A stretch of DNA of 64,000 bases from a virus: positions 62,001 through 126,000 of IMG/VR virus record IMGVR_UViG_3300042868_003731. One strand, given 5' to 3'. Positions 4,989 through 11,982 of this stretch are shown here, piece by piece. Numbering within the stretch: the stretch's first letter is position 1; every line of letters begins with the position of its first letter. Under the pieces are notes generated by a model. That model saw only the letters and a list, made by a program, of their open reading frames with translations, was not told the DNA's origin and made no database searches. The translations under genes were made by a program, and so were the position numbers.

Positions 4989-5072
4989 TGGTGGGAGTGA
5001 AGGGAATCGAACCCAACATGAGTTTCCTCGACGGAGTTACAGTCCGCTGCCTCACCTTGAGGCGGCACTCCC
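4989..5072 (-). tRNA. tRNA-Tyr (GTA)
   Basis: Class II tRNA of 84 nt with a long variable arm (GAG-GAAA-CTC), acceptor GGGAGTG/CACTCCC, anticodon loop CTGTAAC, T-loop TTCGATT, encoded CCA. Confidence 0.92.
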
Positions 5073-6590: not shown

Positions 6591-6665
6591 TGGTTGGGAA
6601 GGGTGGATTCGAACCACCGGCCTGCTGATTCAAAGTCAGTTATTCTGCCGCTGAACTACTTCCCA
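6591..6665 (-). tRNA. tRNA-Gln (TTG)
   Basis: Acceptor TGGGAAG/CTTCCCA, anticodon loop CTTTGAA on ACTGA/TCAGC, T-arm GGTGG-TTCGAAT-CCACC, encoded CCA. Its 5' end is 2 nt from the 20-bp inverted repeat of the structured element upstream. Confidence 0.93.
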
Positions 6666-6667
6666 AA

Positions 6668-6773
6668 ACTCTGTTTTCAACTAGGGTCGTCATCCATGAC
6701 TATCTGCTGCAGCAACCCGGGCCCGCGAAGCCCAGCACGGAATCGAACCGCGAACCCTAGTTGAAAACAGAGT
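6668..6773 (-). ncRNA. Cloverleaf-like RNA element closed by a 20-bp inverted repeat
   Basis: Positions 6668-6687 and 6754-6773 are perfect inverted repeats (20 bp). Between them, read on the minus strand, come a canonical T-arm (CGCGG-TTCGATT-CCGTG), then directly a 7-bp acceptor-like helix CTGGGCT/GGCCCGG capped by 5 nt, then a short D-arm-like hairpin TTGC-TGCA-GCAG and a hairpin GTCA-TGGA-TGAC. The order (T-arm, acceptor, D-arm, with the anticodon stem as closing helix) is that of a circularly permuted tRNA. The left arm can alternatively pair with an upstream segment near 6774-6790. Function unknown; the structure is read by eye. Confidence 0.55.
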
Positions 6774-6870
6774 AAATCTGTTTCCAGTCCATCATCGCTT
6801 ACGCTAGGACAAAGTTTAAATTTTCAAAGAACTGGAAGATTGATTTTGTCTTTCTTCCGCCGTCAACTCA

Positions 6871-6899
6871 TATCTAAACTGATTCTAGATGAATGTCAA
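6871..6899 (-). promoter_or_regulatory. Sigma70-like promoter with TAGAATCAG spacer
   Basis: Minus strand TTGACA, 17-bp spacer with TAGAATCAG, TAGATA. It faces the structured element (6668-6773) and tRNA-Gln/Pro. The 97 nt between it and the element hold no ORF that I can support. Confidence 0.72.
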
Positions 6900-7285: not shown

Positions 7286-7318
7286 CAAAAAAGTTGAGTT
7301 ATTTCAAATTATTTTACA

Positions 7319-7417
7319 GGATCGCTTTTTATTTTGCCCAGGAATCGAACCCGGAACTCTTTCTTAGAAGGAAAGTGTGCTACCGTTGCACTAGCTAATT
7401 TTTTGCTGCAACGATCC
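7319..7417 (-). ncRNA. Atypical tRNA-like RNA, anticodon TCT (Arg)
   Basis: The end helix is GGATCGT/GCGATCC. Inside are a D-arm GTGC-AACGGTA-GCAC, an anticodon arm CTTTC-CTTCTAA-GAAAG and a T-arm CCGGG-TTCGATT-CCTGG. About 19 nt (starting TGCAGCA plus an A-run) separate the end helix from the D-arm, and about 12 A-rich nt follow the T-arm. No CCA is encoded. It is a tRNA with an internal loop in its acceptor stem, or a tRNA mimic. It lies 34 nt beyond the stop of the Ro-like gene. Confidence 0.65.
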
Positions 7418-7451
7418 AAATTGAGGAAGTTAGGCCCGAAGGCCTAACCGA

Positions 7452-8879
7452 TTAGTAGGCATAACGATCGCTCATCAGAGTCTTCAACATAACATTGTAT
7501 GGAGTAAACTCCTCGAGGTCGTTTGCGAGAACATGCTTCATGATGGAAGGAGAGAAACCAGAAACATGCGCAGTACCGTTCTTGTCGAACTTAACTGGAG
7601 TGTTACCGTTTTCCTTACCGTACATGGACAGGTTCCAAAAGACGATCTTTGGAACATCGTAGCCTGCTTCCTTGTACTTACGCTTGATCATCTGCATTGC
7701 AGAGTCATCGTAGCGAGTGCAAGCATCGAACTGCATGTCCGAAAGGATGAGCAGCATGTCAGGCATATCTTCCTGAGACACATTGCCCTTAACAGCGATC
7801 TTGAGGATCTCATCGAATGCTGCGTGCAGGTTGGTGTTCATTTCCCAGTGAGCTTTTGTCATCTGAGTCATCTTCTGAGACAGAGTACCTTTCAGGTGTT
7901 CCATCTTAGGCTTACCAGAGAAGGTCAGGAACAGATCCTTGAAGTCTCCGGTGTTCTTGCTAGCGCAATAAAGGCCAAGAGAAACAGCAATGTCGATTGG
8001 CTGCAGTTGGCTGTAGGTGTACCACAGCGAACCCATCGAGCCGGAGACGTCGACCATAGGCAGAACCTTTGCATCGCCGATGTAGTTAGGCATAGCCTTC
8101 CACTGTTCATCAGCAACAGCCGCATTACCCTTCACGACAGACTTCACAACATCATACGGATAAACCGCAGAAGCGTTGATCTTGACTTTAGGATCTGAAC
8201 GCTCAGCAACAGGCTTCTTCAGTTCCGCAATGTAAGCAGAGTAGGACTCTTTTGCATTACGACCGAAAGCTTTCTGATAACGAGCAGACGCGACAGAAGG
8301 AACGTGCGAGAAGTTGATAGCTTCCCATTCCTTAGCACACATCTGAGTCTCAACGACATTGGTCAAACCGACAATGAGCTTACGGTATGCCTTAGGAGAC
8401 AGACCGAGGTATCGAGTCAGTTCGACTGCGACCGGACCTTTACGTGGCATCCACTTTGCTGCCAGACCATTCTTTGCTTCAAGAGCCTCTGCAATCAGAG
8501 CGAAAGCCTGATTGCGGTTGATCGGGTTCTTGTAGGCAAAGAGGTCATCCCAACGACCAAGTGCTGGGATTTTGTGCATCAGCTTTCCGGCAAGAGTTGG
8601 GTCGGTAGCCTCTAGCGCAGAGAGTAGATTACGGAAGGTAGCACGTTCGCCTGCGCCCTCACGAATGTCACGAGCCCACTGCAGCATACGCAGAGTAAGA
8701 TCGGCATTCTCTACGAGAGAAGCGGTGAATTGCTTGGTGATATCAGTACCACGAGCGGAACCGATAAGACCGAATAGATCCAGAACTGGCGACTGTGAAG
8801 TAGCACGAGCCTTCATACCATTCGCGGTACGAGCGACTGCTTTGTTCTTGGATTTCTGAACTGCATTAACGAATGACAT
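7452..8879 (-). CDS. Ro60-like (TROVE/DUF2828-type) RNA-binding protein with vWA domain
   Basis: A 475-residue protein. The N-terminal part (about 25-250) is helical in the style of the HEAT-like ring of Ro60/DUF2828 proteins, with GRWDDL, AKWMPRKG and KAYRKL segments. The C-terminal part is a von Willebrand A domain with a complete MIDAS: DVSGSM (Asp277, Ser279, Ser281), Thr349 and LSDMQFD (Asp381). Ro60 proteins bind misfolded RNAs and Y RNAs, and bacterial Rsr works with Y RNAs that carry a tRNA-like module. Here the gene is flanked on both sides by unusual tRNA-like RNAs, so a Ro-Y-RNA-like unit is inferred. The ATG at 8879 has a GAAAGGAAT site. The likely promoter is at 9108-9136, beyond the two upstream tRNA-like RNAs. 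Assignment to TROVE rather than the related DUF2828 is uncertain. Confidence 0.8.
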   Translation of the reverse strand: MSFVNAVQKSKNKAVARTANGMKARATSQSPVLDLFGLIGSARGTDITKQFTASLVENADLTLRMLQWARDIREGAGERATFRNLLSALEATDPTLAGKLMHKIPALGRWDDLFAYKNPINRNQAFALIAEALEAKNGLAAKWMPRKGPVAVELTRYLGLSPKAYRKLIVGLTNVVETQMCAKEWEAINFSHVPSVASARYQKAFGRNAKESYSAYIAELKKPVAERSDPKVKINASAVYPYDVVKSVVKGNAAVADEQWKAMPNYIGDAKVLPMVDVSGSMGSLWYTYSQLQPIDIAVSLGLYCASKNTGDFKDLFLTFSGKPKMEHLKGTLSQKMTQMTKAHWEMNTNLHAAFDEILKIAVKGNVSQEDMPDMLLILSDMQFDACTRYDDSAMQMIKRKYKEAGYDVPKIVFWNLSMYGKENGNTPVKFDKNGTAHVSGFSPSIMKHVLANDLEEFTPYNVMLKTLMSDRYAY

Positions 8880-8894
8880 AGTGTATTCCTTTCA

Positions 8895-8981
8895 GGTTGG
8901 ATTTACGGATTAGAACCGTTAAGTTTGTTTATAAGACAAATTGGGAACCATTCCCGGTTTTATTTTTTGCTGAAACCAACC
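8895..8981 (-). ncRNA. Atypical tRNA-like RNA, anticodon TAT (Ile)
   Basis: End helix GGTTGG/CCAACC (extendable by A-T and T-G outside), followed by TTTCAGCA and an A-run, a small D-arm GGGA-ATGGT-TCCC, anticodon arm TTTGT-CTTATAA-ACAAA, and T-arm ACGG-TTCTAAT-CCGT. No CCA is encoded. It ends 15 nt before the Ro-like gene ATG. Confidence 0.6.
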
Positions 8982-9005
8982 TATGGTTTCATAGTTTAAT
9001 AGTCA

Positions 9006-9079
9006 GGATCGCGCCTTGCGGCTTTCCTTTTGATTACAAGTCAAATGCTCTAATGAGCTTTAAGATGCTGTAACGATCC
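9006..9079 (-). ncRNA. Atypical tRNA-like RNA, anticodon TGT (Thr)
   Basis: End helix GGATCGT/GCGATCC (7 bp), then TACAGCA, a D-arm with only 4 loop bases (GCTC-ATTA-GAGC), anticodon arm TTTGA-CTTGTAA-TCAAA, and in place of the T-arm a hairpin GCC-GCAA-GGC with a GNRA tetraloop. No CCA is encoded. The length (74 nt) is tRNA-like but both elbow loops are reduced. Confidence 0.6.
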
Positions 9080-9107
9080 TATATTGCTTCGTTCACATCG
9101 TAAATAC

Positions 9108-9451: not shown

Positions 9452-9459
9452 TATTTATA
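9452..9459 (-). promoter_or_regulatory. T4-type late promoter TATAAATA
   Basis: Exact box on the minus strand overlapping the stop of the adhesin gene, 25 bp before the gene starting at 9427. Confidence 0.6.
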
Positions 9460-10435
9460 CTTCATAAACTATATAGACAACACCATTGCCACCGCGGCCA
9501 GATGTAATAGCAGATTCAGCACATGCACCACCGCTTCCACCACCGTATGTTACAGCTGCCGAACCAGCACCCCTAACTCCATCTGATGCATTAAAATCTG
9601 TAACTGACGATCCTAAAAATGATTGAGACCTATTGTTAGCGTAAGTTGCAACCGCAGGATAAGAGCCATACAACGAAACTTTTATGCCAGCAGTTATAGA
9701 GTCTGTAGTAGAACTCGCCGCAGTTCCACTGTGAGCACTTAAAAATCTTGGTGCACCACCACCAGCCGCAGATGTACGTGGGTTGCTTCCACTTACGCTA
9801 AATCCTCCACCAGCGCCACCAGTAAGATTTGATTGATTTCCGCCAGAAGCAGAGCCCCCGGCCCCGCCTACTCCAGTCACTGCAGTACTCCCACCGTTTG
9901 TACTCTGAGCACCTTGACCACCTCCACCACCAGCAGCAGACATATTTAAACTAAATCCTACAAAACTAGATGCAGTACCAGCGTTTCCGCTTATAGCTCT
10001 TTGCTCAGCCGTCACCCCAACTCCAGCTCCACCGGTTCCAACAGTAACAGTAGCAGAGCCAGTAGTTGTTCCTGCTATGATACTATATGACATACCTCCT
10101 GCGCCTCCACCTCCACCGCCAGCAACACCGTCCGTGTTACCATAAGTACCAACGTTTCTTGCAGGCCAACCCATTCCGCCGGAACCACCAGCGCCGACGA
10201 CGAATATGTGTATGAATCTTGCTAGATTCTTTCTAGGAGTCCAAGTCCTATTACTAGTGATCCTGTCATATACTAGAAAAGTTTTACCATAAAAGTCATT
10301 GATAGATATCTGACCGCTTGCAGGGATCCCACTTGCTAAACCATAATATTCATTCAAAGAAATTGGAGTTGCGCCACCAAATTCGGTTTGTATCTCCAAT
10401 AGATTTAGAGGACTTCCGCTTGATTTAATCGTCAT
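9455..10435 (-). CDS. Glycine-rich tail-tip adhesin, copy 2
   Basis: A 326-residue protein. The N-terminus carries a motif seen in phage tail and fibre proteins (SPLNLLEIQTEFGG, then ISLNEYYG and ISINDFYGK, residues about 7-50). Residues about 75-326 are extremely Gly/Ala/Ser/Thr-rich with repeated GGxGG and AGGGGG blocks. These resemble the polyglycine-sandwich domains of receptor-binding adhesins at the tips of T4-type fibres; the specificity residues would lie in the loops between Gly blocks. It is a paralogue of the gene at 11002-11982 (same length, many identical blocks). Its ATG overlaps the stop of the 185-aa gene (ATGA). Confidence 0.75.
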   Translation of the reverse strand: MTIKSSGSPLNLLEIQTEFGGATPISLNEYYGLASGIPASGQISINDFYGKTFLVYDRITSNRTWTPRKNLARFIHIFVVGAGGSGGMGWPARNVGTYGNTDGVAGGGGGGAGGMSYSIIAGTTTGSATVTVGTGGAGVGVTAEQRAISGNAGTASSFVGFSLNMSAAGGGGGQGAQSTNGGSTAVTGVGGAGGSASGGNQSNLTGGAGGGFSVSGSNPRTSAAGGGAPRFLSAHSGTAASSTTDSITAGIKVSLYGSYPAVATYANNRSQSFLGSSVTDFNASDGVRGAGSAAVTYGGGSGGACAESAITSGRGGNGVVYIVYEV

Positions 10436-11001: not shown

Positions 11002-11982
11002 TTATACCTCATACACGATTATGATAACCCCATTGCCACCGCGGCCAGACCTAACTGCAGCTTCTGCTGCCACGCCACCGCTTCCAGCGCCATATGTTAC
11101 AGCTGCCGAACCAGCACCTCTAACTCCAGCTGATGCATTAAAATCTGTGATAGATGATCCTAAGAATGGTTGCGATCTACCGGCTGCATAAGCTGCGACT
11201 GCTGGGTATGCGCCGTATGACGAAACGCTAATGCCCGGCGTTGTAGCGTCTGTTGTGGAATTTGTAGCCGTGCCGTTATTAGCAGTTAAAAATCTCGGTG
11301 CACCACCACCAGCCGCAGATGTACGTGGGTTGCTTCCACTTACGCTAAATCCACCGCCAGAGCCACCTGTGAGGTTTGATTGATTACCGCCGGATGCAGA
11401 TCCGCCGGTTCCGCCTACACGAGTCAGGCTAGTATTCCCGCCGTCTGTGTTCTGTCCGCCCGGTCCACCACCTCCACCGCCCGCGGACATATTTAAACCT
11501 AGTCCTATAAAACTGGATGCCGTGCCGGCATTTCCGTTTACGGCACTTCTTTCACCAGTAACGCCAACTCCAGTACCACCGGTTCCAACAGTAACAGTAG
11601 CAGAACCAGTAGTTGTCCCTGTTATGCGACTATACGCAACTCCACCGGCTCCGCCGCCGCTTCCACCTGCGACACCGTCAGTATTACCAAAAAAACCTAC
11701 GTTTCTTGCAGGCCAAGCCATTCCGCCGGAACCACCAGCACCAACAACAAATATGTGTATGAATCTTGCTAAGTTTGGTCTTGGAGACCATGTTCCAGAA
11801 GATGTGATCCTATCAATTATTAGAAAAGTTTTACCATAAAAGGTAGACATAGGTATCGCGCCAGATGATGGTATTCCACTTGCTAAACCATAGTACTCAG
11901 AAAAGCTAATCGGCGCCGGATCGCCAAATTCTGTCTGTATCTCTGTCGTAGTTAGAGGAGTTCCGCTTGGTTTAACTGGCAC
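11002..11982 (-). CDS. Glycine-rich tail-tip adhesin, copy 1
   Basis: Paralogue of the gene at 9455-10435 with the same 326-residue length and layout: N-terminal IQTEFGD, ISFSEYYG and IPMSTFYGK attachment motifs, then a long Gly-rich region. Several stretches of more than 50 bp are identical in DNA between the copies (for example around 9751-9805 and 11301-11355), separated by diverged Gly-block loops. A late box TATAAATA lies 38 bp upstream. It likely binds the host surface at the tip of a tail fibre. Confidence 0.75.
   Translation of the reverse strand: MPVKPSGTPLTTTEIQTEFGDPAPISFSEYYGLASGIPSSGAIPMSTFYGKTFLIIDRITSSGTWSPRPNLARFIHIFVVGAGGSGGMAWPARNVGFFGNTDGVAGGSGGGAGGVAYSRITGTTTGSATVTVGTGGTGVGVTGERSAVNGNAGTASSFIGLGLNMSAGGGGGGPGGQNTDGGNTSLTRVGGTGGSASGGNQSNLTGGSGGGFSVSGSNPRTSAAGGGAPRFLTANNGTATNSTTDATTPGISVSSYGAYPAVAAYAAGRSQPFLGSSITDFNASAGVRGAGSAAVTYGAGSGGVAAEAAVRSGRGGNGVIIIVYEV

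Follow-up and report, generated by a model that had tools for sequence, protein, structure and literature searches.

Locus and fold of the cassette

The window analysed here is a stretch of 64,000 nucleotides corresponding to positions 62001-126000 of a 217,966-base IMG/VR virus record, which is the genome of a giant, tRNA-rich phage. It contains a minus-strand tRNA array, with 14 ARAGORN calls in the window, flanked by phage topoisomerase genes and a gene with DUF2828 and DUF7788 domains at 7452-8879. A further tRNA at 4992-5072 (minus strand; 33.5 bits with Rfam), missed by ARAGORN, is unusual or degenerate, and elsewhere in the same genome there is a CUA-anticodon tRNA called as tRNA-Pyl (L057 1324-1401, genome 55646-55723), also seen on the contigs L007, L013 and L014, which is possibly an amber suppressor.

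Amidst the array lies a cassette comprising a closing stem and a permuted tRNA-like cargo (6668-6773, minus strand, transcribed right to left), delineated by its fold and by homologs on three other contigs (L026, L045 and L100). Its 5' arm (UCUGUUUUCA... in RNA sense, 6754-6773) and 3' arm (...UUGAAAACAGA, 6668-6687) constitute a perfect 20-bp inverted repeat, the former being near-constant across the 25 leader-bearing cassettes described below and the latter recognized from the repeat and from the comparison of cassettes. This repeat, which the first-pass annotation had pointed out, surpasses every other perfect inverted repeat in the window in length and exceeds those in all of 60 dinucleotide shuffles of it (longest repeat: mean 11.6, maximum 17). 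Enclosed by the stem, in RNA sense, are a T-arm, CGCGG-UUCGAUU-CCGUG (6736-6752), a 7-bp acceptor-like helix with the strands CUGGGCU/GGCCCGG and a 5-nt UCGCG loop (6717-6735), and a D-arm-like part (6689-6715). Folding recovered the first two just as the annotation had described them; the last consists of two hairpins (6704-6715 and 6689-6700) that are weak, with 4 bp each, and do not form a canonical D-arm. Such an arm (AGCUCAGUUGG...) is confined to the cargo of the relatives L007 and L040.

The folding energy of the minus strand across 6668-6773 is -55.5 kcal/mol (z -6.6), and none of 200 shuffles was as stable. Comparison with relatives, which the annotation had proposed together with folding, bore out the structure: across four sequences, both partners have changed in two pairs of the acceptor-like helix, and 96% of its cells are paired, as against 33-47% in slid controls, although with just four diverged sequences its covariation score was reached by 39 of 500 letter shuffles. 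The T-arm is kept in the same four phages with two single-sided changes.

The cassette is followed after 2 nt, the distance noted earlier, by a tRNA-Gln (6591-6665, minus strand; ARAGORN call), with which it is likely co-transcribed; the cassettes of L007, L022, L026, L032 and L100 are likewise followed by a tRNA-Gln. An identical sequence is present in three other contigs and a diverged but conserved one in L026, L045 and L100; hence, the cassette is not an assembly artefact, and the relatives do not feature a normal tRNA in place of the repeat. Their closing helices contain U-U and A-C mismatches, indicating that a perfect repeat is not required. The phage itself encodes three copies (genome 56050-56139, genome 60186-60334 and the one in the window).

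A leader with a boxA-like site and an alternative pairing

Several elements precede the cassette on the same strand. The first is a promoter-like TTGACA-17-TAGATA (6871-6899), read in the sequence, which the first-pass annotation took for the cassette's own promoter: its TTGACA is perfect and is likewise read upstream in the relatives L007, L009, L011 and L100, but the -10 element TAGATA is weak and the site is absent from the list returned by a consensus promoter scan. It is followed by a 5' hairpin GGAAGA...UCUUCC (6834-6858), also read in the sequence and with an equivalent GGGA...UCCC in relatives, by a boxA-like site GTTCTTTGAAAATTTA (6817-6832), and by a hairpin GUCC-UAG-CG..CG-AUGAU-GGAC (6787-6810), whose conservation is apparent in an alignment of 20 leaders. 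The boxA-like site has one mismatch relative to the family consensus GCUCUUUGAAAAUUUAG; the boxA of Escherichia coli rrnB reads GCTCTTTAACAATTTA. In the window and the adjoining 20 kb there are just two such sites, each immediately upstream of a cassette.

The leader also includes a 9-mer, GGAAACAGA (6777-6785), that can pair with the 5' arm of the closing stem. The complementarity is found in all 25 leader-bearing cassettes, with 8 or 9 of the 9 pairs formed, and in five of them the 9-mer and the arm have changed together, a C-G pair being replaced by U-A. Thus, the mutually exclusive folds that had been proposed from the sequence are real and conserved; however, the segment involved is 6777-6785, and its partner is the right repeat (6763-6771) rather than the left one. 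With this pairing forced, the complete RNA has an energy of -61.6 kcal/mol versus -71.6 kcal/mol when unforced, and since it is about 10 kcal/mol less stable, the 9-mer-paired fold would at best be a transient, co-transcriptional state.

A constant frame with exchangeable cargo

A search pattern combining the leader 9-mer with the 5' arm matched 29 viral stretches, with the leader motif present in 27 of these and a matching 3' arm in 25. Of 80 matches read in bacterial genomes, none had the leader motif and none a matching 3' arm, there being chance hairpins only, while the family, when looked for in cultured phages, yielded tRNA matches or nothing. No Rfam entry scores the combination of leader and frame. 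The family shows a characteristic order: a TTGACA promoter, a short hairpin, the boxA-like site, a hairpin with UAG and with CGAUGA in its loop, the 9-mer and, after 1-6 nt, UCUGUUUUCACAU-, the cargo and -AGUUGAAAACAGA. The near-constant stem can be written as UCUGUUUUC...GAAAACAGA; its first nine base pairs are formed in nearly all of the 25 leader-bearing cassettes, the two positions that come next, behind A-U, form a 2x2 internal loop conserved in most, and the inner stem pairs covary freely. Leaderless cassettes also exist, namely the copy at genome 56050-56139, the second one of L020 and the second and third ones of L040.

Homologous frames hold unrelated inserts, which range in size from about 20 to 140 nt, the shortest being a hairpin of ~20 nt in L022. 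Strict T-arms are found in 12 of 34 cassettes, at times two or three per cassette, and many cargos are without a recognizable tRNA domain. The cargo of the window copy is found again in L026, L045 and L100, and a second permuted cargo, the one with a canonical D-arm, is shared by L007 and L040. On a 282-kb phage contig (L017 10255-10357), a full predicted tRNA-Cys lies within an extra closing stem. While the permuted tRNA-like fold itself is already known, from YrlA, the family defined by the leader, the fixed frame and the swapped cargo is apparently undescribed so far.

A phage Ro60-fold protein with flanking candidate Y-type RNAs

The DUF2828-DUF7788 gene (7452-8879, minus strand) lies 680 bp from the cassette. 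Its product matches PHROG 850, annotated as 'RNA-binding protein' (E 4.5e-145), and recovers just the above two domains at E<=0.01, with no match to the Pfam TROVE domain. AlphaFold prediction gave a pLDDT of 43 from the single sequence, and of 75 (pTM 0.74) from an alignment of ten phage sequences. The best PDB matches of the model are all Ro60/TROVE structures, namely 9kop (Z 16.1, 4.8 A, 379 aligned residues), Xenopus Ro60 (1yvr; Z 15.0, 5.3 A, 363 aligned), the Ro60 of phage phiLo (9l5y; Z 14.8, 5.0 A, 371 aligned) and the Deinococcus radiodurans Rsr (2nvo; Z 11.6, 5.9 A, 352 aligned); the best match of another fold, to a vWA-only structure, has Z 10.6 (4.0 A, 180 aligned), and the rest lie below. 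As modelled, the protein has the helical-repeat ring and vWA fold of Ro60/TROVE. Homologs are found in 682 phage records, with those from mycobacteriophages annotated as 'Ro-like RNA binding protein'. Further to the right, two similar glycine-rich ORFs of 326 residues occur in near tandem (9455-10435 and 11002-11982, minus strand), which are probably duplicated tail or fibre proteins.

In bacteria, Y RNAs mimic tRNA and act as partners of the Ro60 protein. We identified three candidate Y-type RNAs with a CAGCAA-type motif flanking the Ro60-fold gene on the minus strand. Two of these, AGGUUGGUUUCAGCAA...CCAACCU (8895-8983) and AGGAUCGUUACAGCA...GCGAUCCU (8993-9081), are in tandem immediately upstream of the gene, and the third, GGAUCGUUGCAGCAA...AGCGAUCC (7316-7418), encloses a predicted tRNA-Arg(tct) (7330-7400, minus strand). 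The latter has a poor acceptor stem and is situated within the Y-type closing stem GGAUCGUU...AGCGAUCC; it is probably a tRNA mimic rather than a tRNA. On a 195-kb phage contig (G021; L070 12218-12325), the Ro60-like gene is reduced to its C-terminal 37 residues, with CAGCAA-type RNAs and cassettes remaining.

Relationship to YrlA and other tRNA-like RNAs

The order of elements in the Rfam consensus of YrlA (RF02553), with paired ends, T-arm, acceptor hairpin, D-arm and again paired ends, is equal to that of the cassette. Both have 5' and 3' ends that pair in a long stem, lack an anticodon and occur in phages with a Ro60-like protein, though cassettes are also present on long contigs without Ro; the T-arm and the acceptor hairpin are clear in the cassette, whereas its D-part is weak, being canonical only in L007 and L040. 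The cassette further differs in its stem sequence, the 2x2 internal loop seen in most family members, the boxA leader, the alternative pairing, the exchangeable cargo, the location in a tRNA array and the lack of the CAGCAA motif. YrlA aligns along its full length with L040:158-276 (25.8 bits, E 0.0045) and L007:3175-3283 (20.6 bits, E 0.028), both below the Rfam cut-off of 69 bits, and the window copy has no YrlA match at E up to 5. Since two adjacent ordinary tRNA genes imitate the order of YrlA and on their own give spurious scores of 20-28 bits, the L007 and L040 scores are weak evidence by themselves, and we rejected the YrlA matches in a scan of the phage's own genome as explained by tandem tRNAs. 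The same imitation suggests that the permuted domain could have arisen from a tandem tRNA pair; a duplication route has been proposed for permuted tRNA genes (PMC3978253).

YrlA reportedly imitates the D, T and acceptor arms of tRNA and is modified by DusA and TruB, its basal stem binding Rsr and its tRNA-like domain PNPase (PMC8394870). It has also been proposed to be a competitive inhibitor of an anticodon nuclease (PMC7790460).

We surveyed other phages with a script that demands a T-arm, a 7-bp hairpin at once after it and an enclosing helix (602 T-arms, with overlapping loci counted repeatedly). An enclosing helix of at least 9 bp was recovered only in the window's family, Cronobacter phage S13, FelixO1 and Listeria phage LMTA-34, all of which are Ro60 phages. 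Bacillus phage vB_BcoS-136, chosen as a presumed control, also matched the script and turned out to encode a Ro60 beside its array, and there was no match in T4, Maenad and nickie, a small control of 16 T-arms from phages with no Ro60. Permuted tRNA-like RNAs are also found near the Ro gene in the mycobacteriophages Kingsolomon (YrlA score 37.9 bits in Rfam) and UPIE and in Enterococcus phage UTI-EfS3. In the permuted RNAs of the Ro phages, which often occur in several copies, CAGCAA lies immediately internal to the 5' stem, and the 3' stem is followed by a sequence resembling (C)AGUUAAA. In Listeria phage CKA15, three regions no more than 2 kb upstream of the Rsr-like gene are highly transcribed, and a Y RNA identity has been suggested for them (PMC12282133); this agrees with the three CAGCAA sites of the related LMTA-34 at that place. 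As a class, the Y-type RNAs beside phage Ro60 genes resemble the cassette in being closed by a stem and, in several cases, in having a permuted tRNA-like domain; however, they have CAGCAA and short stems of 6-9 bp, and the cassette has neither.

Several of these loci feature additional tRNA-like or structured RNAs. In Aeromonas phage 4_4572 (L094 4000-4930) and Bacillus phage vB_BcoS-136 (L085 9300-12230), CAGCAA-type motifs recur some nine times at or close to the Ro gene. Cronobacter phage S13 (L072 7889-8131 and 8134-8296) has a pair of tRNAs, 121 and 113 nt long, whose anticodon arms hold similar inserts; they are followed by a permuted tRNA-like RNA that has a 21-nt closing stem and carries ACCA in the acceptor loop. 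Listeria phage LMTA-34 has, within its tRNA array, a drum RNA (L079 974-1072) and a ROOL-like RNA (L079 3461-4012), the latter with a score of 88.5 bits, just below the cut-off.

Other RNAs share less with the cassette. Permuted tRNA genes of algae and Thermofilum (PMC3978253) likewise have the 3' half before the 5' half and close the acceptor end with a short loop, but the cassette lacks their anticodon, splice motif and CCA and has a 20-bp outer helix. The permuted tmRNA (RF04321) resembles the cassette in having a long stem and an identically permuted tRNA-like domain; the cassette differs in having no tag reading frame and is not recognized at the gathering score. Permuted tmRNA genes scoring above the Rfam cut-off occur at L010 12515-12886, L014 4617-5045 and L073 1738-2034. 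A tRNA in normal order with a long variable arm was rejected, as neither Rfam nor ARAGORN calls a tRNA on the cassette, and so were the stable RNAs C and D of T4 as counterparts, which do not show a permuted tRNA-like fold.

Possible functions of the cassette

The cassette is not a decoding tRNA: an anticodon, a CCA and a splice motif are all missing from it, and unrelated inserts occupy homologous frames. We favor, with a probability of roughly 0.6, its being a non-coding RNA gene for a YrlA-like tRNA mimic that acts in trans. This is supported by the conservation of the frame with differing cargos, the fold and the repeat that exceed chance, the compensated acceptor pairs in four phages, the presence of a phage Ro60-fold protein and Y-type RNAs, the three copies in one genome, the leader found in viral but not in bacterial matches, the order of parts shared with YrlA, the strict T-arms in a third of the cassettes and the tRNA mimicry reported for YrlA. 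Pointing the other way are the missing YrlA match of the window copy, the many cargos without a recognizable tRNA domain and the fact that the most conserved parts are the leader and the stem, which could act in cis.

Under the trans-acting reading, the cassette and the tRNA-Gln would be transcribed together under boxA antitermination. The leader 9-mer would first pair with the 5' arm and be displaced once the 3' arm is made, whereupon RNase III, together with RNase P acting at the 5' end of the tRNA 2 nt away, might release a compact, stable RNA. Presenting a tRNA elbow and an acceptor-like helix without an anticodon, this RNA could engage tRNA-recognizing proteins; possible partners are a particle of Ro60 and PNPase, like that of YrlA, or defence enzymes that cleave tRNA, for which it would be a decoy. 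A tentative extension of the latter option is that, in large phages, the exchangeable tRNA-like cargos of the family as a whole diversify as decoys for host enzymes recognizing or cleaving tRNAs; they would be made under a leader with rRNA-like antitermination and be independent of the Ro60/Y RNA system encoded alongside.

Within the trans-acting reading, a more specific possibility, which we regard as somewhat unlikely, is that the cassette serves as a Y RNA for the Ro60-like protein encoded by the same phage, which would bind it via the closing stem. The proximity of the Ro60-fold gene, the YrlA-like order of arms and the presence of cassettes on several Ro-positive contigs all speak for such a role. 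Moreover, the AGUU(G)AAA of the cassette's 3' strand resembles the AGUUAAA that follows the stem in Ro-adjacent Y-type RNAs (L011 and mycobacteriophage Kingsolomon); judged from these sequences, this may reflect a common protein site or chance. However, the Y RNA role is better fitted by the three separate CAGCAA-type RNAs flanking the Ro gene, which weakened what had been our first hypothesis, that the cassette is simply the Y RNA partner of Ro60; the motif itself is absent from the cassette. Cassettes also persist in G021 with its remnant Ro and occur on contigs of 99 kb and 110 kb with neither a Ro60 nor clear CAGCAA-type RNAs, though as these may be fragments they are not proof of its absence. 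Given the CAGCAA-type RNAs, the lack of a YrlA score and the cassettes without Ro60, we describe the cassette as a YrlA-like mimic and not as a proven Y RNA.

Somewhat unlikely, too, is a cis-acting role as the leader of the tRNA-Gln unit, in which boxA antitermination together with an RNase III stem and a bistable hairpin would control the tRNA transcript or its processing, with the tRNA-likeness of the cargo being secondary. This would account for the match of the boxA to rRNA leaders, the concentration of conservation in the leader and stem, the frequent placement of the cassette 4-5 nt ahead of a tRNA and the dispensability of the cargo in L022, but not for the leaderless cassettes, nor for cargo folds that are conserved and recur in different phages.

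The first-pass annotation had viewed the element as a permuted tRNA awaiting processing by RNase P or RNase Z. The permuted topology stands as far as the order of arms and the compensated changes are concerned, but the outer helix closes on nothing resembling an anticodon loop. That the gene is circularly permuted and, when cut in its acceptor loop, yields a decoding tRNA is very improbable: the arm order and the 5-nt acceptor loop are as expected, but there is no anticodon, CCA or bulge-helix-bulge motif, the outer helix is a perfect 20 bp, other cargos occupy the same frame, and such genes, which depend on that motif, have no described examples outside algae and one archaeon (PMC3978253). 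A degenerate permuted tmRNA that has kept its tRNA-like domain and lost its mRNA part is the most implausible of all, being rejected on the Rfam results (no match at the gathering score and a 12.2-bit partial match over the tRNA-Gln only) and by the lack of a tag reading frame or pseudoknots and the tRNA-Gln beginning 2 nt after the stem, despite the shared topology and the true permuted tmRNAs of the related phages L010 and L014.

Taken together, these observations add an apparently undescribed family of phage RNAs, tRNA mimics with a fixed frame and swapped inserts, that is found beside a phage Ro60/Y RNA system. They would make it testable why phages keep tRNA-like RNAs, be it as decoys, for RNA quality control or for tRNA repair. 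Cultured phages (Listeria, Cronobacter, FelixO1, Mycobacterium, Bacillus and Enterococcus) likewise have YrlA-type RNAs near their Ro60 genes, and where the hosts are ones commonly kept in the laboratory, function is directly testable.
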